From: a virus
Direction: 5' to 3' (one strand)
Length of the DNA: 24,811 bases
Virus record (IMG/VR): IMGVR_UViG_3300040801_006092
Location: 1-24,811 of that record
Part shown: positions 2,634 to 22,935 of the stretch, piece after piece
Position numbering within the stretch: position 1 is the first letter of the stretch
Layout of the letters: each line of letters starts with the position of its first letter
Position numbers and translations under genes: made by a program
Notes under the pieces: generated by a model
Database searches by the model: none
What the model was told of the DNA's origin: nothing
What the model saw: the letters and a program-made list of their open reading frames with translations, nothing else

Positions 2634-3169
2634 TCCGCGGAGGCCGTCACCTCCGGGGGCGAGGGAGATCGCTCCGGCGATCTGCCAGACGGTGGCCCAC
2701 CCCCGGAAGTCTTGTCTTGCGTCTCGATCGCGTCCTCGGCCAACTTCCGGGGGTCGATCCGATCGAGTCTGGTCTCGATCGCCTTCACCGCGGCGTCGAT
2801 CATGCCCATCTGCTTGGCGACGGCTTTCGCGCGGTCGGTCCGCCCCCGACCTCGGAAAAAAACCACGAGCTCCTCGTAGAACGCCCGCTGCGCCGCCAAC
2901 AGTGTCTCGCCGTCGAAGACCCCCCGGACCTCTTCGGCGGTGACGCCGTGGCTGGCGAACTGGCCTTCAAGCATGAGGCAGAGGACTTCGCCCAGCAGCA
3001 TCTCGTCGGTGCCGAGCAGGGTCAGCGCGGGCGGTCCGTCGGGGTCGTCGCGGCGGGGGGATTCGGGTTGCAAGAGGTCGATGCCGAGTCTGTCGCGGAC
3101 GGCCATGGCGGTGCCGAGGTTGAGGGTTAGCGTCCATGTGCGGCCCGAGGCGTCTTGGAAGGTTTGCAT
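2630..3169 (-). CDS. Tail assembly chaperone, upstream frame (lambda gpG analogue)
   Basis: The product has 179 residues. I place the start at the ATG at 3169 (MQTFQDASGRTWTLTLNLGT), because an earlier ATG adds only a poor leader that overlaps the promoter region of the opposite-strand toxin-antitoxin pair. The N-terminal part looks like a small beta domain with TLNLGTAMAVRDRLGIDLL. The middle is helical (FYEELVVFFRGRGRTDRAKA). The last 25 residues, after QDKTS, are low-complexity Gly/Pro/Ser and look like a by-product of terminating in the zero frame. Proteins in this position hold the tape measure protein during tail polymerisation and are absent from the virion. It sits between the major tail gene and the tape measure gene, separated from the former by the inserted toxin-antitoxin pair. 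Confidence 0.75.
   Translation of the reverse strand: MQTFQDASGRTWTLTLNLGTAMAVRDRLGIDLLQPESPRRDDPDGPPALTLLGTDEMLLGEVLCLMLEGQFASHGVTAEEVRGVFDGETLLAAQRAFYEELVVFFRGRGRTDRAKAVAKQMGMIDAAVKAIETRLDRIDPRKLAEDAIETQDKTSGGGPPSGRSPERSPSPPEVTASAD
2696..2710 (-). other. Probable -1 programmed frameshift site joining the chaperone frames
   Basis: Read on the minus strand, the zero-frame codons are ACT TCC GGG GGT GGG. Moving back one base on the run of five G gives GGG TGG GCC ACC GTC TGG, which opens the downstream frame. Beyond this point the zero frame encodes low-complexity sequence to its stop at 2630, while the -1 frame encodes a well-formed helical segment leading into the next gene. A -1 shift between two overlapping frames just ahead of the tape measure gene is conserved across tailed phages. 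The heptamer is not a textbook X XXY YYZ site, so the exact slip codon is uncertain. Confidence 0.55.
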
Positions 3170-3204
3170 GGGTGGATTCCCGGTGGTCAAAGGTCGATAG
3201 AAGA

Positions 3205-3223
3205 TGTACACTTTTGATGTACA
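3205..3223 (+). promoter_or_regulatory. Paired TGTACA palindromes, likely operator of the antitoxin-toxin operon
   Basis: Two TGTACA palindromes (3205-3210 and 3218-3223) sit 13 bp centre to centre, within a direct repeat of GATGTACAC, 18 bases before the antitoxin ATG. TGTACA is the established core hexamer bound by the YefM antitoxin of the Phd/YefM family, where two palindromes lie about one helical turn apart. This gene encodes a Phd/YefM-type antitoxin, so autoregulation through these sites is a direct inference. Confidence 0.65.
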
Positions 3224-3240
3224 CCCCGGAGAGTTCGGTC

Positions 3241-3477
3241 ATGCGTACGCTCAGCGTCAAAGAAGTCCGCCAACACCTCAGCGACGTCATCCGCGAGGCG
3301 GAGGCTGGCGCGTCGGTCACGATCACCCGCTACGGCACCCCCATCGCGCAGATCACCCCGGTGGCCAAGGCGCGTCCGAAGTTCCCCGACCTCTCGGACT
3401 TCCGCGCCTCCATCCGCCCGCGCGGCAAGAACCTGTCGCAGACGCTTCGCGAGATGCGTGACGAGGAACGGGCGTGA
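3241..3477 (+). CDS. Phd/YefM-family antitoxin
   Basis: This 78-residue protein should bind and neutralise the toxin encoded directly downstream and repress their shared promoter. The N-terminal 50 residues show the Phd/YefM fold pattern: LSVKEVRQHLSDVIREAEAG, then VTITRYGTPIAQITPV, which is the usual beta-strand with a conserved Gly-Pro-Ala-like turn. The C-terminal 25 residues (FRASIRPRGKNLSQTLREM) should be the flexible toxin-binding tail. The ATG at 3241 has GGAG nine bases upstream; an in-frame ATG at 3217 would lie inside the operator, so I reject it. The stop overlaps the toxin start as GTGA. It lies on the strand opposite to the surrounding tail genes, so it has its own promoter and was probably inserted as a cassette. 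Family assignment is confident. Confidence 0.88.
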   Translation: MRTLSVKEVRQHLSDVIREAEAGASVTITRYGTPIAQITPVAKARPKFPDLSDFRASIRPRGKNLSQTLREMRDEERA

Positions 3478-3893
3478 GGGCGTACGTCGACACCAGCGTG
3501 TTGGCCGCTGCCTATTGCGATGAGCCCGGCACGCGTCGGGCCGACCGTGCGTTGCGTGAGTGTGAGCCGGCGATCTCCAGCCTGACCCGCGTTGAGTTCA
3601 GTTCCGCCGTTGCGCGCAAAGCCCGCGAGGGATCGTTGACCAGGACCGAGGCGACCCGCATCGTTGCGGAGTTCCAGACCCACGTCCGCGCCGATGTCTT
3701 CGAGCCCCTGTCGATCGACGAGACGCACTACGCGCTCGCGAACGACTGGATCGACTCGGGCGTCACCGCATTGCGGACGCTCGACGCGTTGCACCTGGCG
3801 GTTGCTCACGCCCACGGCATCGAGTTGATCACGGCCGACAAGACGCTGGCCAAGGCCGGCCGTCAACTCGGCTGTGCGATCAAGGCGATCTGA
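3474..3893 (+). CDS. vapC: PIN-domain ribonuclease toxin, VapC-like
   Basis: This 139-residue protein starts with GTG overlapping the antitoxin stop. PIN toxins are Mg-dependent RNases that cut tRNA or rRNA and stop growth when the antitoxin is degraded. The expected acidic residues are in place: Asp6 in YVDTSVLAAAY, Glu41 in TRVEFSSAV, Asp104 in LRTLDALHLAVA and Asp122 in LITADKTLAKA. Length matches the family. The pair is a common hybrid of a Phd-type antitoxin with a PIN toxin. It ends 14 bases from the convergent end of the major tail protein gene. In a temperate phage such a pair can stabilise the prophage or exclude competing phages. The active site appears complete, so the toxin should be functional. 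Confidence 0.9.
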   Translation: MRAYVDTSVLAAAYCDEPGTRRADRALRECEPAISSLTRVEFSSAVARKAREGSLTRTEATRIVAEFQTHVRADVFEPLSIDETHYALANDWIDSGVTALRTLDALHLAVAHAHGIELITADKTLAKAGRQLGCAIKAI

Positions 3894-10388: not shown

Positions 10389-10862
10389 TCAAGTCCCTTG
10401 TAGCTCCTCAGCCAGCTTGCGCAGCTTTTTGAGAAGCGGGGCGGAGAACTGGCCTTGACCTGGGGTCGTCTGGGCGAACGACAGGATCGCGTTGACGAGT
10501 TGCAGAAAGGGCTCGGGCTTCATGGTCCCGATGCGCTTGCCCGCGGTGATCGACGCCAGTGGCACCCGATCGATCTGCAACACCGACCACTCCGCCATCA
10601 CGCCCGTGCGGTTGACGTGCCATTCGATCGCCTGGGCGTTGTCGAGGAGCACGGACAGCGCCGACCGATCCACACCCCGGCTCACGTAAAACTCAATCGC
10701 ACGGGAGATCGTCTCACGCCCGGCGGTGAACGCAGGCACGACAAGCGCTTCCTTGCTGCCGGCCACCTCGAGTACCACGACGCAGGGGTGGTCGCTGTAG
10801 GGCGCGGATATCCGCGGATCCTTCGAGTCGCAGTCGTAGACCCTCGCCCTGAGATCAGCCAT
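10389..10862 (-). CDS. Unknown 157-residue protein, possible partner of the Panacea protein
   Basis: ATG at 10862 overlaps the Panacea gene end by eight bases, with GAGG upstream. The protein begins MADLRARVYDCDSKDPRISA and has a beta-rich N-terminal half (PCVVVLEVAGSKEALVVPAF), a helix (TISRAIEFYVSRGVDRSALS), a middle part near IEWHVNRTGVMAEW, and a basic C-terminal helix LLKKLRKLAEELQ. No membrane segment, PIN, Fic, RelE or synthetase motif is visible, so it is not one of the toxin types I know to pair with Panacea. It might be the cognate toxin of a new pair or a third component. In the three-gene set it lies in the middle. Its function is unknown. Confidence 0.7.
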   Translation of the reverse strand: MADLRARVYDCDSKDPRISAPYSDHPCVVVLEVAGSKEALVVPAFTAGRETISRAIEFYVSRGVDRSALSVLLDNAQAIEWHVNRTGVMAEWSVLQIDRVPLASITAGKRIGTMKPEPFLQLVNAILSFAQTTPGQGQFSAPLLKKLRKLAEELQGT

Positions 10863-11466
10863 CGCCTCGCCACGCTTCGATCATCAGCCGCGCGGCGGTG
10901 TGGTCCTCGCCGGTCTGGGCGTCGTAAGCGTCGATGACCTCCGTCCAGTCGATGGCCTTGGCACCGTCTCGCTGGCGAGCCGCGTTCCAGGCCCGGCCCA
11001 TGTAGCCGTCGCCGTGGAAGAAGTTTTCACGCTGGCCGAAGGTCATCGGGATGATCTCGTGCCAGGCCCGACGCAGCGACTCAAGCTCGGCGGCGCTGAA
11101 GTCCTCGTCATCCACGGTGCCGTAGGGTTCGTAGATGAATCGGTTGCCCGACTTGGCGATGACCCGGATCTTGCCTTGATGGGTGTCGCCAGCCTCGTCG
11201 AACCTGTGGCCGAGCGACTTGATCCGGTTGTACCCCTCGGTGACGACCGGGCCATGCTTCCACGGACTCAGCCTGCCGCCGATCATCTGCTTGCCGGTCT
11301 CAAGCACATGGAAGAAGTCGGCCATCACGTGGAGCTTCGTGATGTCGTGCTGGTCCAGCGAGCGGCCATACACCCGCATGAGGTGGTTCATGCAGGCATC
11401 GAACCGCTCCGGGCTGAAGGGCTTGAGCTGGTTGATCAGCATTTGGGGGGGGCAAATCGCGTTCAT
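10855..11466 (-). CDS. Panacea (DUF4065, SocA-like) antitoxin-type protein
   Basis: The product has 203 residues from ATG at 11466, with AGGCGAGG upstream. The Panacea domain pattern is clear: DITKLHVMADFFHVLETGK near 41-59, IGGRLSPWKHGPVVTEGYN near 62-80, a strand around IRVIAKSGNRFIYEPYG and a C-terminal helix set ending AAELESLRRAWHEI. Panacea proteins are versatile antitoxins known to neutralise several unrelated toxins, mostly in phages and prophages; SocA is a distinct adaptor role in the same fold. This copy has a usual-length domain plus about 60 extra C-terminal residues (WNAARQRDGAKAIDWTEVID). Codons 5-7 lie in a run of eight C, so length slippage could shift the frame. The gene leads its cassette. 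Confidence 0.83.
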   Translation of the reverse strand: MNAICPPQMLINQLKPFSPERFDACMNHLMRVYGRSLDQHDITKLHVMADFFHVLETGKQMIGGRLSPWKHGPVVTEGYNRIKSLGHRFDEAGDTHQGKIRVIAKSGNRFIYEPYGTVDDEDFSAAELESLRRAWHEIIPMTFGQRENFFHGDGYMGRAWNAARQRDGAKAIDWTEVIDAYDAQTGEDHTAARLMIEAWRGDG

Positions 11467-14844: not shown

Positions 14845-15474
14845 GTGAAAAAAGAAGACATCAAAATCGGCAACACCTACTCCGCCAAGATCACCGACAA
14901 GGTCGTACCCATCCGCATCGACGCCGAGCACGACAGCGGCGGATGGATCGCGACCAACCTCAAGACCAACCGCCAGGTCCGCATCAAGTCGGCCCAGAAG
15001 CTCCGCGGCGAGGTCAAGACCAACCCCGCCGCCGCGAAGAGCAGGCAGCCGATGAAGAAGCTGACCGCCGCCGAGCGCAAGGCCCGCAACGCCCAGCTCA
15101 AGGCCCAGGCCGCGGCCGACCAGGAAAACGCCCGGGTCCGCGACGAACGCGACGCCAGCAAAGACGGCATGACCGCCAGCGAGCGGGCCATGACGGAGAC
15201 CGCGAAGAAGTCCAAGGCTAAGCGGCCCAAGGCCGACAAGGCGATGAGCCTGCTCGACGCCGCGGCCAAGGTCCTCGCCGACGCCAAGACGCCAATGAAC
15301 ACACGCGAGATGGTCGACGCGGTCACCGAGAAGGGCCTGTGGAAGCCCGGTGCCGGCAAGACGCCCCACGCCACGCTCTACTCGGCCATCCTCCGCGAAA
15401 CCAAGGTCAAAGGTGACGAGGCCCGGTTCGCCAAGGTCGAACGCGGCCGGTTCACCCTGACGAAGGGGGCGTGA
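14845..15474 (+). CDS. HARE-HTH domain protein
   Basis: This 209-residue protein starts with GTG at 14845, seven bases after AGGAG. Residues 1-60 form a small beta domain (IKIGNTYSAKITDKVVPIRI and NRQVRIKSAQKLRGEVK). Residues 70-130 are a highly charged Lys/Ala linker. Residues 132-205 are the HARE-HTH winged helix: MSLLDAAAKVLADAKTPMNT, then REMVDAVTEKGLWKPGAGKT, PHATLYSAILRETK and the final FAKVERGRFTLTKG. In bacteria and eukaryotes this domain is linked by comparative genomics to recognition or control of DNA base modification, and it is related to the RNA polymerase delta subunit domain. Here it sits in an operon ending in an Nmad-like gene next to a methyltransferase, which agrees with that association. 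Confidence 0.85.
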   Translation: MKKEDIKIGNTYSAKITDKVVPIRIDAEHDSGGWIATNLKTNRQVRIKSAQKLRGEVKTNPAAAKSRQPMKKLTAAERKARNAQLKAQAAADQENARVRDERDASKDGMTASERAMTETAKKSKAKRPKADKAMSLLDAAAKVLADAKTPMNTREMVDAVTEKGLWKPGAGKTPHATLYSAILRETKVKGDEARFAKVERGRFTLTKGA

Positions 15475-15477
15475 ACC

Positions 15478-15834
15478 GTGCCGACCCGACGACGACCCAA
15501 TAGCCGTGCGGTGCTCTTCGACGTCGTTGATGACCACCTGGAGATGAAGGTGAGCTTCCTCGACGCCCCAGACCGCGGCTACGTCCACCGCTGCACCCGG
15601 GACATCTTCCGCGAGGTCGCCTTCACGATCGAAGAACACGCCGCGGGCGGCATGACGCTCGAAGACCTCGTGGCCGAGATGGACGCCCCGTACACGCAGG
15701 TCAACGTCGCGCTCGCCTTCATGAAAGAACGCGGCTGCGTCGAGGTCCGCCGAAGGCGCAGCTACCCCGCGTCGGCAGCCCTCTACGAGGACGCCATGAC
15801 CGAGTTCATGTACCTGGCCGAAGCGCCGTACTGA
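15478..15834 (+). CDS. Probable winged-helix protein of unknown role
   Basis: The product has 118 residues with GTG at 15478, four bases after the HARE-HTH stop, so translation is probably coupled. The centre shows helix-turn-helix order: DIFREVAFTIEEHAAGG, MTLEDLVAEMDAPYTQVNVA, LAFMKERGCVEVRRRRSY, the last with the usual wing-like basic hairpin. It looks like a small MarR- or replication-type winged helix which would bind nucleic acid. No catalytic residues are visible. It may act with the HARE-HTH protein as a second DNA-binding subunit. A weak intrinsic terminator follows at 15859-15884. Confidence 0.7.
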   Translation: MPTRRRPNSRAVLFDVVDDHLEMKVSFLDAPDRGYVHRCTRDIFREVAFTIEEHAAGGMTLEDLVAEMDAPYTQVNVALAFMKERGCVEVRRRRSYPASAALYEDAMTEFMYLAEAPY

Positions 15835-15858
15835 GCGCATCACGCCTTCTCCGCTCCC

Positions 15859-15884
15859 ACCCCGGCCGTCGCGACTGGGGTTTT
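15859..15884 (+). terminator. Weak intrinsic terminator after the plus-strand operon
   Basis: ACCCC (15859-15863) and GGGGT (15877-15881) pair around a centre containing the palindrome GTCGCGAC, followed by TTTT at 15881-15884 and then CTCG. The short stem and U-run suggest partial termination ahead of the Nmad-like gene, which has its own binding site. Confidence 0.45.
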
Positions 15885-15951
15885 CTCGTGGTAGATCAGG
15901 GCGGGTATCTTGACGCCTCGTAACGGATCTAGTTCTGCGGGAGCAAGTGTC

Positions 15952-17310
15952 GTGCAGGTCATCCTCGTACGAGTCGGCGTCGATCACTCCTTCGGTCAAT
16001 GGAATGCGCCGGTCGACGCCGCCACCGGGAAGTTCGTCTACGTCCCGATCCCCGAGAAAGCCGGCACCGCATTTCACGTCGGGTGCGAGCGCCCATACAC
16101 CGCGATCGTGCCGGCAATCGAGGCGTTCGCTCAGGAGACTGGCGTGCCGATCGCATTGCCAGACCACCTGGCTAAGCGGGCGATGCACCTGGATCCTGAC
16201 TTCGAGTATTTGACCTACGGCGATGTAGGTAGCCGCCGCGGGTCGCACATCCGGGAACTCAAGGAAGACGATGCATTGGTGTTCTACGCCGGGCTCAAGC
16301 CCTGCCAGTCCTGCGAACACAAGCTGATCTATGCATTCATCGGTTTGATGGTTGTCGACGAAGTCGTCGACGCCGCCTCGGTCGCCAGGCAACGTCGCGA
16401 TGAGAACGCTCATACACGCAAAATCAAGATGGGAGCCACCGACATAGTCGTGCGAGGCAAGCCTGGGGTGTCTGGGCGTTTGCAGCGATGCCTCCCGATC
16501 GGCGAGTACCGCGACCGGGCCTATCGGATCCGTCACGACCTGCTCGAAGCCTGGGGTGGCCTTACGGTCAAGGATGGCTACATCCAACGCAGTGCTCGAC
16601 CGCCAAGGTTCAGTGACCCTGCCCGCTTCATGGCGTGGTGGGCAACACAGCAACCGTCGTTGATCGAGCTGAATAACCCCAACGCCGAGCCGGAGCGTGT
16701 GGTCATCGTCCACCTGCGGCAGCCGCGCCGCAATGACCCCAACGAGATGCGATCCGACCCGTTCTACGAGTTCGGCAGCTTTGGCTGCACCGGCTGTCAC
16801 CGCAAGAACCTGATGAACCCTAAGAAGCTTCATGAACTTGACAGGGCCAGGCTGGCGTTCGTCCAAGGCGGAAGAGGTGAGTTTCGACTGATCATGCTCA
16901 CGCCACCGGCCCGCACGCTGAAGCGCGACGGAGTCTGCGAAGTGAAATGGGAGCCGACCACTCAGCCATTTCGATTCAATCAGGCACCGTTGATCATCGA
17001 TCGGGACGGCAACACTGACTTCCCCGCCCTCAAGCATATGATCCAGGTGACGGATCGCACAACGTGGCTGGGCCGTTTCTCCAGCAAATTTCGATCCAGT
17101 CGCAAGGCGCTGCGTAGCCACGTCGCCGCTGAAATGTGTCAGGTCTATCGGAGGATTCACGCGAAGACGACGCCGGCAGGATTTGCGACAAGCTACGTGC
17201 AGACGTTGCCATTCCCGCCGAACATTATCGACACGGACCGGTCGGGCACATATCGGCGGCTGCTCAGAATGAAGAAGGCGAACGGTCATCGGCATAAGTC
17301 GCGGTGTTGA
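15952..17310 (+). CDS. Nmad3-like nucleotide-modification-associated protein with a zinc-type C-terminal region
   Basis: The product has 452 residues. I choose GTG at 15952, nine bases after GGGAG, over an upstream TTG that adds a poor leader. Residues 1-130 resemble Nmad3, a domain predicted by comparative genomics to assist complex DNA base modification in phages: VILVRVGVDHSFGQWNAPVD, FVYVPIPEKAG, HLDPDFEYLTYGDVG, DDALVFYAGLKPC and YAFIGLMVVDEVV. The remainder, about 320 residues, is unfamiliar; it contains CTGCH near 280, possibly half of a metal site, plus CQSCEH near 120. The base composition is less GC-rich than in the preceding genes, suggesting separate acquisition. It ends 44 bases from the convergent methyltransferase gene. 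The family call is moderate and should be tested by profile search. Confidence 0.68.
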   Translation: MQVILVRVGVDHSFGQWNAPVDAATGKFVYVPIPEKAGTAFHVGCERPYTAIVPAIEAFAQETGVPIALPDHLAKRAMHLDPDFEYLTYGDVGSRRGSHIRELKEDDALVFYAGLKPCQSCEHKLIYAFIGLMVVDEVVDAASVARQRRDENAHTRKIKMGATDIVVRGKPGVSGRLQRCLPIGEYRDRAYRIRHDLLEAWGGLTVKDGYIQRSARPPRFSDPARFMAWWATQQPSLIELNNPNAEPERVVIVHLRQPRRNDPNEMRSDPFYEFGSFGCTGCHRKNLMNPKKLHELDRARLAFVQGGRGEFRLIMLTPPARTLKRDGVCEVKWEPTTQPFRFNQAPLIIDRDGNTDFPALKHMIQVTDRTTWLGRFSSKFRSSRKALRSHVAAEMCQVYRRIHAKTTPAGFATSYVQTLPFPPNIIDTDRSGTYRRLLRMKKANGHRHKSRC

Positions 17311-17353: not shown

Positions 17354-18739
17354 TCAATTGCACGCGAGAACTTCTTTGCCTTCCGCCGGTGATGCATGTG
17401 TCACCTGAAGACGCTCGGCCTTCTTGCCGGTGAACTGCTCCCAGCGCTTCACGATCACGTCGCAGTAGGCCGGGTCGATCTCCATCAGGAACGCCCGACG
17501 GCCGGTCGTCTCGCAGCCGATCAGCGTCGAGCCCGACCCGCCGAAGAGGTCGAGGACGTTCTCGCCGGCCTGCGATGAGTACTCAATGGCCAGCCGGGCA
17601 AGCTCCACCGGCTTTTCGGTCAGGTGGACCATTGATTGCGGGTTGACCTTCTTGACGTGCCAGAGGTCGGTGGCGTTGTTGGGCCCGAAGTACCGATGGG
17701 CCGCACCCTCTTTCCATCCATAAAACGCAATCTCGAACGCCCCCATGAAATCTTTTCGCGTCAGGACGGGGTGCTGTTTGTCCCAGACGATGCACTGGCT
17801 GAAATACAACCCGGCCCGCTTGAGCGGCGCGGGGTAGTTCCCCAGGTTGGCGTACCCGCCCCAGACGAAGAACGATGCTCCGGGCTTCATCACGCGGGCC
17901 GCGTTCCCGAACCAGGCGTCGAGCAGCGCGTCGAACTCCTCGTCCGTGACGAAGTCGTTCTCCAGCGGGCGGTCCTTGGCACGCATCTGCTTATGCGTCG
18001 GCTTTGACTTCTCCGGGTGCCGGGCCAGGTCGAGCTTCTGATGGTGTCCCCCGGACCCCTTGGCTTTTCCGGGGGCCTTGGCGAACGACGAGTTGCCGGC
18101 GGCGATCGCGTTGTTCGACCGGGGCTCGACCTTGACGTTGTACGGCGGGTCAGTGTTGAGCAGGTGGATCACCGCGCCGTCGAGCAGGACGTCGAGGTCG
18201 GCCGGCTTCGATGAGTCGCCGCACATCAGGCGGTGCCCATTCCGGGGGTTGCCGAGGACCCACACGTCGCCGGGTTGGGTGGTGGGGTCGTCGGGCGGTT
18301 CGGGGACGTCGTCCTCGTCGGTCATCCCCTCGCTGGTGCCGTTGCCGCTGGCCAGCAGCCGGTCCAGTTCGTCCTCCGCGAAGCCGAGCAGCCCCAGTTC
18401 GTAGTTGGCCGCCTGCAGCTCGGACAGCTCGATCGGCAGCAGGTCCATGTCCCACTCGGCGATCGTCGCCGTCTGGTTGTCGGCGATGCGGTACGCCTTG
18501 ATCTGATCGTCCGACAGGTCCTCGGCCACGTGCACCGGCACCTTGGCCAGGCCGAGCTGCTTGGCCGCCTTCCACCGCGTATGCCCGACGATGATCACGC
18601 CGTCGGCGTCCACGACGATGGGCTGGCGGAAGCCGAACTCCTTCAGTGAATGGGCGACCGCCTCCACGGCGGGGTCGTTGATGCGGGGGTTCTTCTCGTA
18701 CGGGCGGACGTCATCGATGGCGGTGAGCTTGATCTTCAT
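17354..18739 (-). CDS. ParB-domain DNA methyltransferase (beta-class, N6-adenine or N4-cytosine)
   Basis: The 461-residue protein transfers methyl from S-adenosylmethionine to an exocyclic amine of DNA. Residues 1-110 are a ParB/Srx-like domain (IDDVRPYEKNPRIN, GHTRWKAAKQLGL near 52-64, AYRIADNQTATIAEW). Catalytic motif IV is TDPPYNVKV near 196-204, and the cofactor motif I is LDLFGGSGSTLIGCE near 395-409; this order (IV before I) defines the beta class. GGENVLDL-type sequence precedes motif I. The family is common in phages and can protect DNA against restriction. A 35-residue insert (KAKGSGGHHQKLDLARHP) separates the catalytic motif from the target recognition part. ATG at 18739 follows AAAGGAA. 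It has no partner restriction enzyme here. Two copies of the dispersed word lie within the gene. Confidence 0.93.
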   Translation of the reverse strand: MKIKLTAIDDVRPYEKNPRINDPAVEAVAHSLKEFGFRQPIVVDADGVIIVGHTRWKAAKQLGLAKVPVHVAEDLSDDQIKAYRIADNQTATIAEWDMDLLPIELSELQAANYELGLLGFAEDELDRLLASGNGTSEGMTDEDDVPEPPDDPTTQPGDVWVLGNPRNGHRLMCGDSSKPADLDVLLDGAVIHLLNTDPPYNVKVEPRSNNAIAAGNSSFAKAPGKAKGSGGHHQKLDLARHPEKSKPTHKQMRAKDRPLENDFVTDEEFDALLDAWFGNAARVMKPGASFFVWGGYANLGNYPAPLKRAGLYFSQCIVWDKQHPVLTRKDFMGAFEIAFYGWKEGAAHRYFGPNNATDLWHVKKVNPQSMVHLTEKPVELARLAIEYSSQAGENVLDLFGGSGSTLIGCETTGRRAFLMEIDPAYCDVIVKRWEQFTGKKAERLQVTHASPAEGKEVLACN

Positions 18740-18838
18740 GGCGATGGTTCCTTTCGCGGGAAATTCCGGGGGGGGTGGTTTCTTTCACCGACAACCAATT
18801 CAATGGTTTGACGCGACCGCTCCCGCCTCCGTAAGCGT

Positions 18839-18869
18839 TTATAAGTCACGCGGAAGTACCTATTTGCAA
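18839..18869 (-). promoter_or_regulatory. Possible promoter of the methyltransferase gene
   Basis: On the minus strand TTGCAA (18869-18864) and TTATAA (18844-18839) are separated by 19 bases, a little long for a sigma-70 promoter. They lie about 100 bases before the ATG, in one of the few AT-rich stretches here. The leader also carries an inverted repeat, CAACCA ... TGGTTTG, near 18791-18809. Confidence 0.35.
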
Positions 18870-18878
18870 TCGGCAAGA

Positions 18879-18894
18879 TGTAGCACACGCTACA
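18879..18894. promoter_or_regulatory. Inverted repeat TGTAGC-ACAC-GCTACA, candidate operator
   Basis: Perfect six-base arms with a four-base centre sit just upstream of the possible methyltransferase promoter and at the left rim of the iteron region. No second copy was seen. A regulator-binding site is plausible. Confidence 0.45.
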
Positions 18895-18946
18895 AGTAAG
18901 GTGCCCGGCGACGTGATTCGACCGGCGGCGTGCGAACTCCCGATCC

Positions 18947-19099
18947 CCGTTAGTCCCTGGCAGTCCCTAGCAGTCCCTAGGGATTTGGCATTGCACACAC
19001 GCGCGCGCCTGCGTGCGCGCACGCACGCGCACGCGCGACACGCCTCAGCGCACAATGCGCAGTCCCTAGGGATTGCTAGGGACTGGTAGGGACTCGGGG
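18947..19099. repeat. Facing arrays of AGTCCCT iterons around an alternating purine-pyrimidine core
   Basis: AGTCCCT occurs at 18952, 18962 and 18972 at exact 10-bp steps, and again at 19061; the complement AGGGACT occurs at 19078 and 19088, again 10 bp apart. The palindrome TCCCTAGGGA is embedded in both arms. Left (18947-18996) and right (19050-19099) blocks are inverted repeats of about 48 bases and match at roughly 40 positions, including an inner GCATTG. Between them is a 50-base run of mostly alternating purine and pyrimidine (CACACGCGCGC type), prone to Z-form. Helically phased iterons beside a replication gene are characteristic of plasmid and phage origins. Confidence 0.75.
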
Positions 19100-19108
19100 C
19101 GGCGGGGC

Positions 19109-19331
19109 GTGAGTCTGTGAGTCGCGTGAGTCTGTTTCCGGCCCCCTTACATGCGCGGGCGCGCACACACGTGCGCACGCATGTTTTTCTTTTCAACGTG
19201 TGAAGACGTGTTTGCGCTTCTCCCTCATGCGTAAGGGTTGGAATCTGACTCACAAACTCACGGGCGGAGCGTAAGCGCGGAGATTCGCTGGACTTGAGGG
19301 CGTGAGTGTGCCCGTGAGTCAGCGTGACTGT
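19109..19331. repeat. GTGAGTC repeat field, second part of the origin-like region
   Basis: GTGAGTC occurs at 19109, 19117, 19126 and 19314, with the complement at 19247 and close variants at 19255 (complement), 19302, 19324 and 19332 (GTGACTG type). Steps within the first cluster are 8 and 9 bp. These repeats differ from the AGTCCCT iterons, so two proteins may bind. The segment is non-coding on both strands as judged by repetitive composition, and it borders the primase gene end at 19351. Confidence 0.6.
19150..19194. other. Nested hairpin followed by a T-rich patch; unwinding element or terminator
   Basis: CATGCG (19150-19155) pairs with CGCATG (19178-19183), and inside it GCGCAC-ACAC-GTGCGC (19161-19176) is perfect. 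TTTTTCTTTTC follows directly. On the plus strand this has intrinsic terminator form, but no plus-strand gene precedes it. Beside an iteron array a T-rich run is also what a DNA unwinding element looks like. Confidence 0.45.
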
Positions 19332-19350
19332 GTGACTGTGACCGGTCTGC

Positions 19351-21783
19351 TCAGGCATGATGTAGCCTCCAGACGGCTCCGTTGCGTCGCGGCTCGTTGG
19401 GGTCGGTGTCGATGTAGAAGCCGCCGACGTTGCGACGCCGGTAGTGGCGGAGCTTCGATCCGACCTGGCGTGGCCCGGGCGTTCGCCCCGGCGGGCAGCC
19501 CACGAGGTTCTCCAGCGCGGCCCGCATCGCGTTCGCGGCTTCGTCGCGGGGCGGGAAGTCCTTCGAATACAGGCGCGCCACCGTTTCCGATACCACGATG
19601 CCCTGATGCAGGTCGTCGTACATGCGCCAAGCGTCGATCAACTGAACCAGCGCGTCGGCGCTGGTGTCGGCCTGCTCGGCGAGACGGTCGCGCGTGGCGC
19701 AGGGGTCGGGCTGGCCGGCCCACACGATCGCCTCGCGGACCAGGCTCGACCACCCCTCGAAGCTCCCGAAGGCCGGGATGTCCTGGCGGGGCCGCCCCGC
19801 GTTGACGTACCCGCGCAGGATCGTGAGCGCCGCCGCGACGAGGCGTGGCCGCTCCCGACCGATCCAGCTGAGCAATTGGGGGTGTCGGAACCCGGTTCGC
19901 TCCTCGGGCCGTTCCTCGAGGACGTCCAGGCGAACGTGGATGATCCGACGAGCGGTGTCCGCAGCAACCTGGACGTTGTTGCCCGTCCCGTACCAGACCG
20001 GGATCAAGGGCAGATCCACCTCTTGGCTCTTGCCCAAGATGCGGTCTTTCCACCGCGTGGTGGTCAGCGCCCGGTCGAGCGCGTCGTTGCCGAAAGCGCC
20101 CTCGAGGTTGTCGAGGTGGATGACGCGGTCGCCGGCGATGGCGATCGACGTGATCTTCTTACGCATCTCTTCGGTGTCGTGGGCGTAGGACGACACGGGC
20201 ATCTCGCGGCCCAGGACGAGATGACCAATGGTCTGAGCGAGCAGCCCCTTGCCAGCGCCGCGGATGTTGGCGTCGATGAGGAAGAGGGGCGTGGGCCCGT
20301 CGAACGCGAAGCGGGCCAGGGGAGTCAGCAACCCCGCGAGCCACGCCGCGCGGTGGTCGGGGGACTCGAACGCGAAATCGCAGACCACTTCGTGCAGCTT
20401 TTCGATCGCCGCGTCTGCGTCGTCGAGCCCGACCTGGTCGTGGATCTCGGGGAACTCGGCAGACGGGGCGTAGAGCACGCCGGTCTGCGTGTCGTAGCCG
20501 GGGGTCTGCCAGAGCGACCCGTCGGGGCGGAGCACGGGCACGTCCGAGACCCCCTTGAGCGGGCGGAGGCCGGGCCACTCGCCGCGGGCGTCGATGGCTG
20601 CGACGAGCCAGGGCGTGGGGTGCGTGAGCACCTCGACGGCCAGGTCGCCGCGCTGGACGAAGTGGGTGAACTCGATGTGCTTGGTCAGCCGCTCACGCAG
20701 CGCGGGCGGGGGCAGGAACGAGATCGCCGGCACACCGTCACCCCGCCGCACCGAGCCGTCGTCGTCGTGATCTCGCAGGATCCGCACCAGCACGCCCCCG
20801 CGGTGGTAGAGCCCCTCGTCGGCCGCCAGCGCCGCGATCGACTCGGTGACGACGCGGTGCTCATCGGTGTCGATGACGACCTTGGTCTTGCCCGATGACG
20901 ACGCGTCCCGGGCGATGACGCTCCGGGTCGCCTTCGACTCGGCGTCTCGTACCCGCTTGAGGATCTCCTCGTCCGTCCATTCCTGCGGGAATGGTTTCGA
21001 AGCCGCGTACGCGCGGATGGCCTGCAAGGCCTGGTCGTCGTTGAGGTCGTGTTCGACGGTGCGACACGCCGCGGCGAAGAGCCGGCCCGACCCGTCGCGC
21101 TGATCGGTGACCCGCATCCGATCCATCTCCGCCACGCACCCCAGGATCTTGCTCTCAATGCGTCGAGCGGAGCGGTCGGGAGCGGGATTCGATGAGGTCT
21201 GCGTGGAGCGGGCTGCAGAACGCTCACCCAGCTCGACCTTGACCGCGTTGGCGAGCGACTCGACCGCGGCGAGCAATACGTCCGGATCGACCGCAGCAGG
21301 CTCGGAGGCCTCGGCACCCGGCTCCCAGGCGATCAACTCGCCGCACTCGTGCGTGCTGGGCGGAAACACGGTCTGCAGGCCGGTCGATCGCAGCTCGACA
21401 AGCATGCCGCTGGACTTGCTCTTGTGCTTCTTCGTCGGGACCGGGCCCGTAACGCGGTACAGGTAGTGCGACCGGGGCTTGCCCGGGCGGCCGAAGATCG
21501 CCGGGGTGGGAGGAAGATGCTCGGGTGCGAGTTCGACGCATCGCGGGTGGTCGAGGTCAATGTCGATCAGCCAGCCGGACGGCTCGCCCAGCAGCACCCC
21601 GACGTTCATCGGCGTCCCGCCGAACCGCGTGACGACGTGTTCCTCGCTGAGCCGCGTTCTCTCCCAGCCCCGGTAGCCGGGGTTCTTGCTGCGGTGCGGG
21701 ATGGGGACGACAGACCACCCACGCGCTTGGTATCGCTGCGCGGCATCGAGTGCCGGTAGGGCGTGGGGCTCTTCAATAGCCAA
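19351..21783 (-). CDS. Primase-polymerase with C-terminal helicase-type ATPase domain
   Basis: The 810-residue protein would make primers and unwind DNA during phage replication. Residues 8-160 are a bifunctional primase-polymerase domain: ALDAAQRYQARGWSVVPIPH, catalytic Asp74 and Asp76 in WLIDIDLDHP, His106 in SHYLYRV, and later ELRSTGLQTVFPPSTH. A linker region (RIESKILGCVAEMDRM, 210-290) matches primase C-terminal helical units. A P-loop ATPase domain starts near 450, with Walker A IRGAGKGLL near 505 and Walker B AGDRVIHLDNLEG near 555, then TTRWKDRILGKS and PVWYGTGNN, resembling D5/VirE-type superfamily 3 helicases. The C-terminal winged-helix-like part begins near 700. TTG at 21783 is the apparent start, with GGGGGTG upstream inside a hairpin. 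It lies next to the proposed origin, as replication initiators commonly do. Confidence 0.9.
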   Translation of the reverse strand: MAIEEPHALPALDAAQRYQARGWSVVPIPHRSKNPGYRGWERTRLSEEHVVTRFGGTPMNVGVLLGEPSGWLIDIDLDHPRCVELAPEHLPPTPAIFGRPGKPRSHYLYRVTGPVPTKKHKSKSSGMLVELRSTGLQTVFPPSTHECGELIAWEPGAEASEPAAVDPDVLLAAVESLANAVKVELGERSAARSTQTSSNPAPDRSARRIESKILGCVAEMDRMRVTDQRDGSGRLFAAACRTVEHDLNDDQALQAIRAYAASKPFPQEWTDEEILKRVRDAESKATRSVIARDASSSGKTKVVIDTDEHRVVTESIAALAADEGLYHRGGVLVRILRDHDDDGSVRRGDGVPAISFLPPPALRERLTKHIEFTHFVQRGDLAVEVLTHPTPWLVAAIDARGEWPGLRPLKGVSDVPVLRPDGSLWQTPGYDTQTGVLYAPSAEFPEIHDQVGLDDADAAIEKLHEVVCDFAFESPDHRAAWLAGLLTPLARFAFDGPTPLFLIDANIRGAGKGLLAQTIGHLVLGREMPVSSYAHDTEEMRKKITSIAIAGDRVIHLDNLEGAFGNDALDRALTTTRWKDRILGKSQEVDLPLIPVWYGTGNNVQVAADTARRIIHVRLDVLEERPEERTGFRHPQLLSWIGRERPRLVAAALTILRGYVNAGRPRQDIPAFGSFEGWSSLVREAIVWAGQPDPCATRDRLAEQADTSADALVQLIDAWRMYDDLHQGIVVSETVARLYSKDFPPRDEAANAMRAALENLVGCPPGRTPGPRQVGSKLRHYRRRNVGGFYIDTDPNEPRRNGAVWRLHHA

Positions 21784-21956: not shown

Positions 21957-22259
21957 TTATGTCGTGACCGCGAGCGGCGGCTCGGCCACGCCGGTGCCCC
22001 GCGACACCGTGAATGCCACAGCGCCGAATTCCTTGATCAGGAACTGAGCGCAGATCTCCGTGACCCGCTTGGCGATGTCAGCATCGCCCGCAACCTCGAT
22101 CGCTCGATCGACGTCGTCGCGGTCGTAGCGAACCCCCAGCCGAACGGCCGGTTCGCCGTACATGCCTTCGGCAGCGAGCAAGGCGACATGAAGCGTCGCC
22201 TCGGCCTCGTCGAGATCGACCTTGTCGTTGAACTTGAACACGCAGGTGAAGGGGGTCAT
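21957..22259 (-). CDS. Small hypothetical phage protein
   Basis: The product has 100 residues with ATG at 22259 and AGGAG nine bases upstream, one of the best sites in the window. It begins MTPFTCVFKFNDKVDLDEAE and continues TLHVALLAAEGMYGEPAVRL, GVRYDRDDVDRAIEVAGDAD, then AKRVTEICAQFLIKEFGAVA and a final short strand FTVSRGTGV. The alternation suggests a compact alpha/beta fold without a membrane segment. No known motif is visible. It lies between the sigma-like gene and the primase gene on the same strand and follows a strong hairpin and the 39-bp element. It could be a replication accessory protein or single-strand binder, but this is guesswork. Confidence 0.75.
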   Translation of the reverse strand: MTPFTCVFKFNDKVDLDEAEATLHVALLAAEGMYGEPAVRLGVRYDRDDVDRAIEVAGDADIAKRVTEICAQFLIKEFGAVAFTVSRGTGVAEPPLAVTT

Positions 22260-22356: not shown

Positions 22357-22935
22357 TTACTTGGGATTCAGCGCTTCTTTCAAGTCCCGCCTGAACTTGG
22401 CGATCCAACCTCTCAGCGTCGGTACCTTCAGGCCGTGATCTTCCGCTGATTCGGTCGCTCCCTGTGTGACCCCGTCCACAACCGGTTGGCGCTGGGGAGG
22501 CTTGAGCTTTCGAAGCGCGTGCGCGAGGCAGTCCCTGAGTTCGACCATCTCGGTGCTGTTCAAGCGGCTCCCGCCGTATCGAATTCGCCCAAGTTCCAAG
22601 AGGCTTAGCAGTGATGTGTCTTTTCCACTGCGGCAGGAGATTTGCGCGTCAAGAGACTGGACTTCGAAACCCTGCCTTCGCTTCTTGCGATCTCGGTGGC
22701 GGATCTGCTGCCGTACCCAGTTAGCCGATTTCACGTTTGCTAGCGCTGCTCGGGAACCCCGTTTAGGATCCCAATCGTCAGCACCTTCGAGGAGATGGCA
22801 ACGCAAGTCGCTCTCCAGGTGTTCGGCTACTTCAGATCGAAACAACGGGTGTTTCTTTAACTGCTTGACGCTGGACTTGATGATTACCTGAACTTCGGGG
22901 TCGCTGATGAATTGCTCTCTGTTGTTGATGGCCAC
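22357..22935 (-). CDS. Sigma-70-like regulatory protein
   Basis: The product has 192 residues with GTG at 22935 and GGGAG upstream. The region VAEHLESDLRCHLLEGADDW followed by DPKRGSRAALANVKSANWVR and the basic HRDRKKRRQG block reads like a sigma region 2: helix, the D-x-x-RG motif and an Arg-rich recognition helix. The last 60 residues (LRDCLAHALRKLKPPQRQPV, then ATESAEDHGLKVPTLRGWIA and KFRRDLKEAL) match a sigma region 4 helix-turn-helix that contacts the -35 element. Length matches ECF-type sigma factors. The acidic linker between the two regions is long. It may direct transcription from the paired 39-bp elements. Similar genes are remembered from planctomycete prophages. I am fairly confident of the family pattern and less so of the target. 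Confidence 0.68.
   Translation of the reverse strand: MAINNREQFISDPEVQVIIKSSVKQLKKHPLFRSEVAEHLESDLRCHLLEGADDWDPKRGSRAALANVKSANWVRQQIRHRDRKKRRQGFEVQSLDAQISCRSGKDTSLLSLLELGRIRYGGSRLNSTEMVELRDCLAHALRKLKPPQRQPVVDGVTQGATESAEDHGLKVPTLRGWIAKFRRDLKEALNPK

Follow-up and report, generated by a model that had tools for sequence, protein, structure and literature searches.

The region between the methyltransferase and primase-helicase genes of an uncultivated virus contains short phased repeats, and the question is whether it is a replication origin, how many origins it holds and which protein would read them. The window analysed here is the whole 24,811-nt IMG/VR record IMGVR_UViG_3300040801_006092, a linear, incomplete contig. 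An origin beside its primase-helicase, as the original prediction had it, is well supported by comparative evidence. On the other hand, the single elaborate origin with two repeat families that it described resolves into two separable modules, each typical of a different helicase family, whose unlike phylogenetic distributions had been missed. We refer to them as module A (AGTCCCT; 18952-19094) and module B (GTGAGTC; 19105-19345), to the helicase family of the window as H1 (D5-like, phrog_29234-like) and to that of locus L030 as H2 (phrog_1829/TIGR01613). We consider it probable that the modules are two adjacent origins of the P4/PICI kind, B being cognate to the window's own H1 helicase and A being an H2-type origin retained from an L030-like ancestor.

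The window carries tailed-phage markers (portal, capsid, terminase and ParB_N/methyltransferase fusion genes), and its portal, capsid and terminase genes set it apart from satellites of the SaPI/PICI type, which have no structural genes of their own. The relatives of its helicase are found mainly in MAGs of Phycisphaerales and other Planctomycetota and in IMG/VR contigs, so the host is likely to be a planctomycete. The cumulative GC skew of the window has no clear switch at 19.1 kb and is uninformative. A shift in both GC and AT skew is seen at a plus-strand block amid minus-strand genes (14845-17310), which holds a HARE-HTH gene and an Nmad3 nucleotide-modification-associated gene. A Phd/YefM-type antitoxin and PIN-domain toxin pair lies on the plus strand (3136-3893) inside the minus-strand structural block, and a SocA/Panacea-domain antitoxin-like gene (10855-11466) is located near the terminase gene.

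Two repeat modules beside the primase-helicase gene

The repeat region lies between two minus-strand genes, and the primase-helicase gene abuts it, as had been stated (Table 1). Module A combines AGTCCCT units in exact 10-bp steps with TCCCTAGGGA palindromes and an alternating purine-pyrimidine core. Its arms are inverted as described, with a length of 42 nt each rather than about 48; they are 86% complementary and 59 nt apart, and the arm-pair detector gives them a score of 27, compared with a maximum of 12 in 300 dinucleotide shuffles. The palindrome reported for each arm is present (AGTCCCTAGGGA, at 18972 and 19061), and AATCCCT units stand beside the AGTCCCT units. Counted on both strands, the window holds 9 copies of AGTCCCT where 2.3 are expected, and at least 9 copies were reached in 0 of 100 shuffles. 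The alternating stretch between the arms was also found, and a single break divides it into runs of 17 nt (18992-19008) and 28 nt (19010-19037); the longest such run in 200 shuffles of the whole window was 23 nt.

In module B, the "nine or so" copies of GTGAGTC are reached only when the variants GTGAGT and GTGACT are included, which gives about 9; exact copies number 5, all within 19109-19320. This whole-window count, again on both strands, is not unusual (4.4 expected), and it is the clustering and the facing arms that are. The arms at 19108-19123 and 19247-19262 score 13.5, a value reached in 0 of 300 shuffles, so that both modules exceed 300 of 300 shuffles for facing iterons. The T-rich patch of the original prediction could be located within the core. 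Module B starts a few nucleotides from the primase-helicase stop codon, as it does in the relatives, and module A lies approximately 257 nt from that codon. The distal arm of module B recurs in locus L003, and a similar repeat cluster follows the helicase stop in L012. We propose that the adjoining primase-helicase is the initiator of module B.

Table 1. Coordinates of the two modules and of neighbouring features in the window
Feature	Position	Strand	Description
ParB_N / N6-N4 DNA methyltransferase fusion	17354-18739	-	conserved neighbour beyond the origin region
Conserved 42-bp element	18819-18860	-	GGTACTTCC...GGCGGGAGC, between origin and methyltransferase
Module A, left arm	18952-18993	+	AGTCCCT at 18952, 18962 and 18972; inverted AATCCCT at 18979-18985; end ...GGCATTG
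Module A, core	18994-19052	none	GC-rich, alternating purine-pyrimidine, Z-DNA-prone
Module A, right arm	19053-19094	-	CAATG; AGTCCCT at 19061 (+); AATCCCT at 19068 (-); AGTCCCT at 19078 and 19088 (-)
Module B, distal arm	19105-19134	+	GTGAGTC at 19109, 19117 and 19126, then TGTTTCCGGCCC
Module B, core	19135-19246	none	purine-pyrimidine run of 26 nt (19159-19184); T-rich patch (19183-19196); GCGTAAGGG at 19229
Module B, proximal arm	19247-19262	-	two GTGAGT units, facing the distal arm
Extra repeats	19299-19345	+	GTGAGT/GTGACT with 8-bp period, flush with the primase-helicase stop codon
Primase-helicase	19351-21783	-	810 aa; Prim-Pol N-terminus (PF09250) and D5-like SF3 helicase core

Candidate origin classes of the two helicase families

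Facing arms with a gap of 35-130 were sought from -60 to +400 of the helicase stop in non-redundant loci, with 100 dinucleotide shuffles per locus, a number that limits p to approximately 0.01 per locus, and other stretches of the same locus as controls. All 100 shuffles were beaten by 14 of 16 H1 loci at 60% identity or more and by 10 of 13 at 45-60%; the corresponding counts for H2 are 6 of 8 and 8 of 15, with 23 of 44 at 35-45%. Several further loci gave p values of 0.02-0.03, and stretches of the same length elsewhere in the loci rarely match the arm scores near the helicase stop. Among hold-out H2 loci, fetched afterwards at 45% identity or more, 12 of 13 have facing arms and 11 of 12 the 10-bp period; the hold-out H1 loci, nearly all below 50% identity, have facing arms in 5 of 20, and below about 50% identity a detectable module is often absent from H1 relatives.

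The iteron period separates the classes, being 8-9 bp in 23 of 23 H1 loci and 10 bp in 15 of 18 near H2 relatives; that of module A is 10, as in the H2 class. The H1-type layout has facing 8-9-bp iterons directly 3' of the helicase gene, usually around an AT-rich core, and the layout of most H2 relatives has facing 9-10-bp iterons 3' of the helicase gene, usually around an alternating purine-pyrimidine core. Within each class the layout is constant and the units differ between relatives: GTGAGTCTG, GTGTATCTG, GCGACTCT, GTGACTCTG, ATGTATTTG and GCGGGACTN in H1, and AGTCCCTRGC, ACCGTCGCGC, ACTGTCGCGC, TGTACCGCGG and TGGCACGCGG in H2. The loci share ancestry, and these iteron changes make the layouts more independent of one another. 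Six named P4-family phages (9NA, Proteus 2207-N35, Alteromonas R9Y1, Aeromonas KLEA5, Vibrio 13VV501A and Tbat2_2) have no facing arms 3' of the helicase, which shows that not all P4-family phages have the layout; most of the named ones scanned have packed genes. Facing tandem-repeat arms were also seen upstream of the methyltransferase gene in L162, L167, L190 and L195, where neither an H1 nor an H2 helicase is detectable, and these perhaps belong to a third initiator family. In L275 and L284, from planctomycete genomes, the helicase reading frames contain one in-frame TGA.

Another finding concerns the part of the protein that would read the iterons. In L003 an H1 helicase follows a primase N-terminus of the L030 type, and the module is of H1 type; in L033 and L042 a Prim-Pol N-terminus like that of the window precedes an H2 helicase, and the modules are of H2 type. 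These natural domain swaps show, at the level of sequence comparison, that the candidate origin module follows the helicase part and not the primase domain. Within H2, iteron similarity is associated with the last 75 residues of the helicase when the rest of the protein is controlled for (partial Mantel, r=0.52, p=0.0005, n=18, with the arms chosen by the detector as input); the same test in H1 gives a weak association (r=0.22, p=0.02, n=22). It is through this association that binding of the iterons by the helicase, and origin activity, are indirectly suggested. Modelled with AlphaFold2 (pLDDT 87.6), the window helicase is similar to the vaccinia D5/MPXV E5, SaPI5 and NrS-1 hexameric helicases with Z of 11-14, and its C-terminus forms an H-H-H-E-E element of putative winged-helix type. 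Thus the initiator of the window is predicted to be a D5-type SF3 helicase with a C-terminal DNA-binding domain. The L030 helicase matches TIGR01613 and, as family A3 in a profile comparison, the SaPI5 primase-helicase 7ola (E=1.6e-10).

The inverted arms might alternatively form an RNA or DNA hairpin (terminator, attenuator) or serve as operators for a methyltransferase repressor. The arms do lie between two genes and can fold, and a stem-loop was proposed by the pRN1 authors; however, each arm consists of units repeated in tandem every 8-10 bp, for which a hairpin has no need, the modules track the helicase family while the methyltransferase neighbour stays constant, and the iterons associate with the helicase C-terminus. 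We regard this explanation as the least probable of those considered here.

Architecture, statistics, family association, mosaic homology, iteron/C-terminus association and the predicted helicase fold were computed; that the modules are origins, together with the protein binding, the double-ring step and the order of events, we infer. The proposed plan is a pair of facing arrays of helically phased tandem binding sites around a core, directly 3' of the primase-helicase gene. The 8-10-bp steps would place the units on nearly one face of the helix, where the C-terminal DNA-binding domain of the self-loading D5-type SF3 helicase may bind them, one ring per array. The two rings would then meet head to head, one on each of the facing arms, distort the core and open it, and the fused AEP primase could prime both forks. 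The binding and loading steps are modelled on SaPI Rep, Cch2, P4 alpha and SV40 (PMC7581432, PMC4234260). For many uncultivated phages, of Planctomycetota and others, this amounts to a testable rule: the origin may be readable from the sequence 3' of the primase-helicase gene, the family of the helicase can be told from the class of the iterons, and changes in the iterons are associated with the DNA-binding region at the C-terminus.

The junction between the two modules

The AGTCCCT module is of the type that is not typical of the window's own helicase. It resembles the H2 class in its 9-10-bp period, inner palindrome, CATTG/CAATG flanks (as in the nearer relatives) and alternating core, but the gene that adjoins it encodes an H1 helicase, and no H2 helicase or second helicase is present in the 24.8-kb contig. 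An exact scan of IMG/VR for AGTCCCTNNNARTCCCTAGGGA, from the AGTCCCT arm, returned a single matching contig, L030. There, module A stands alone, without module B. Its neighbours are a counterpart of the window's methyltransferase (83%) and a primase-helicase of another kind (TIGR01613, P4 family), and it lies directly 3' of this P4/SaPI5-type H2 gene. Conversely, L012 (helicase 76% identical) and L003 (61%) have a GTGAGTC-type module 3' of the gene and nothing AGTCCCT-like. DNA searches of plasmids and phage records with the module gave nothing useful.

DNA comparison places the change of affinity between 19094 and 19105. To its left the window matches L030 (methyltransferase 79%, module A 81%), and to its right it matches L012 (82.5% over 19105-19180, the start of module B; primase 71%). 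The two genes upstream of the primase (21957-22259 and 22357-22935) again have their nearest match in L030. Because L030 matches flank the L012-like module B and primase, an initiator cassette, consisting of module B and the H1 helicase, appears from these comparisons to sit in an L030-like backbone that has kept its own module A. The initiator gene of an L030-like ancestor would thus have been replaced by an H1 helicase gene with its attached origin, while module A stayed. This would be a case of an initiator-plus-origin cassette moving as a unit and leaving the older origin behind.

A second locus with both module types was sought among the loci analysed and not found, so that the mosaic reading rests on one contig and a chimeric assembly is possible, in which an L030-like phage (methyltransferase and module A) was joined to an L012-like phage (module B and primase). 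The exact position of the junction between the modules fits such an artefact. On the other hand, no long shared sequence is present at the junction, two joins would be needed because the genes upstream of the primase also best match L030, and the order methyltransferase, origin, H1 helicase is natural in L003. Chimeric assembly is therefore unlikely.

It is also conceivable that the window's own helicase uses A and B together as a composite origin, with A as an accessory site; P4 alpha likewise uses both ori1 and crr. P4 has ori1 and two 120-bp crr repeats, all with type-1 iterons; in the window, AGTC is common to both modules and module A is fully intact. However, the P4 sites share one iteron, whereas here the unit sequence, the period (10 versus 8-9) and the core differ; the closely similar module A of L030 accompanies a different helicase without module B, and H1 relatives carry one module type only. 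We hold the composite origin to be rather unlikely. Alternatively, module A might be served by another initiator, of P4 type, whose gene lies in the part of the phage genome that the contig lacks, or by a co-resident element; the phage would then have two replicons. The contig is indeed linear and incomplete, and module A is intact even though no alignment to L030 is obtained for the spacer close to it. Yet the helicase adjoins its module in L030 and its relatives, and no locus with two helicases was seen, the window included, which leaves this possibility very unlikely. Retention of module A from an L030-like ancestor, as a leftover or a spare, thus stays the preferred reading.

Relation to known origins and the alternating core

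The symmetrical layout, for which the original prediction knew of no described phage origin, is known from P4 crr and from PICI/SaPI origins, with which the window modules share the position directly 3' of the initiator helicase gene and the two facing iteron sets. The P4 GenBank record places crr immediately 3' of alpha, as two tandem 120-bp copies whose type-1 iterons face each other, and the detector scores the first copy at 12.5 (maximum 11.5 in 100 shuffles). P4 and the window thus share a pair of tandem modules with short facing iterons immediately 3' of a primase-helicase gene; unlike the window, P4 has modules that share one iteron (GGTGAACA), an AT-rich core without a purine-pyrimidine run, a TOPRIM-type primase and a separate ori1. 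P4 alpha is cited in PMC4234260 for iteron recognition of the wH type. In PICI/SaPI origins, two iteron sets flank an AT-rich region directly 3' of rep (PMC6092414). The position is the same, and the H2 helicases are homologous to the SaPI5 primase-helicase, but the present genomes are tailed phages or prophages with terminase, portal and capsid genes rather than satellites, and the window has two module types in one genome. The core of module A, moreover, is alternating, 78% GC and not AT-rich, and for this reason the window origins are filed as a variant of the P4/PICI type and not as a plain member.

Two further systems are similar in position. The pRN1 plasmid encodes a PF09250-type prim-pol/SF3/wH protein with an inverted-repeat element of about 100 bp just 3' of its gene, comparable to the arrangement of the window; unlike the window, pRN1, as well as BIP-1, is described as having a stem-loop 3' of the gene (PMC4234260), for pRN1 one without iterons by that description. 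BPP-1 gave a weak arm pair only (detector score 10.5). In vitro, SCCmec Cch2, a SaPI5 Rep-like helicase of the P4 family, binds direct repeats that immediately follow the 3' end of its gene, which is the placement seen here; it differs in having three 5-nt iterons and inverted repeats that are dispensable for binding (PMC7581432). Two aspects are new: origins of two types stand side by side, and a Z-prone core recurs among the H2 origins. Searches of an open-access library found no phage origin described with a purine-pyrimidine core and no origin described for planctomycete phages.

Among H2 loci at 45% identity or more, the core purine-pyrimidine stretch exceeds 99% of the same-length windows of its locus in 17 of 18, compared with 2 of 24 H1 loci, one of these being the window's own module A. 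A core more than 0.1 below the locus in GC is found in 1 of 18 such H2 loci and in 16 of 24 H1 loci. The H2 stretch has a mean length of 38 nt with 55% CG/GC and 34% CA/TG-type steps, and the latter dominate in distant H2 loci. One hypothesis for GC-rich cores is that a B-to-Z transition takes up supercoiling or serves as a block that can be distorted. A further-reaching proposal, in which the alternation is conserved where neither its sequence (CG-rich or CA-rich) nor the iterons are, is that left-handed DNA takes the place of an AT-rich element as the part of H2 origins that two helicase rings distort between them, and that the window phage has two functional origins, each with its own initiator, or switches between them; this we think improbable. 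The recurrent core nevertheless raises the question of how SF3 helicases could open origins that are GC-rich and lack an AT-rich element. The alternating core is frequent, not universal, in H2 origins (23 of 30 in the pooled set at 45% identity or more). A requirement for it in all H2 origins was dropped, as it is found in 6 of 12 hold-out loci and other core types exist: the H2 origin of L277 has a (CT)n run between ACCGTCGCGA iterons, and other loci have purine-rich or AT-rich cores.

The conserved 42-bp element next to the origin region has counterparts in 26 of 76 relatives and in 7 of 1746 control windows, and is perhaps a promoter for a sigma-like factor of the phage or another cis site. 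Written as GGTWCTTCC...GCGGGAAC, it also occurs upstream of methyltransferases in L147-L226. The GGGAAC within it is similar to an ECF -35 box.
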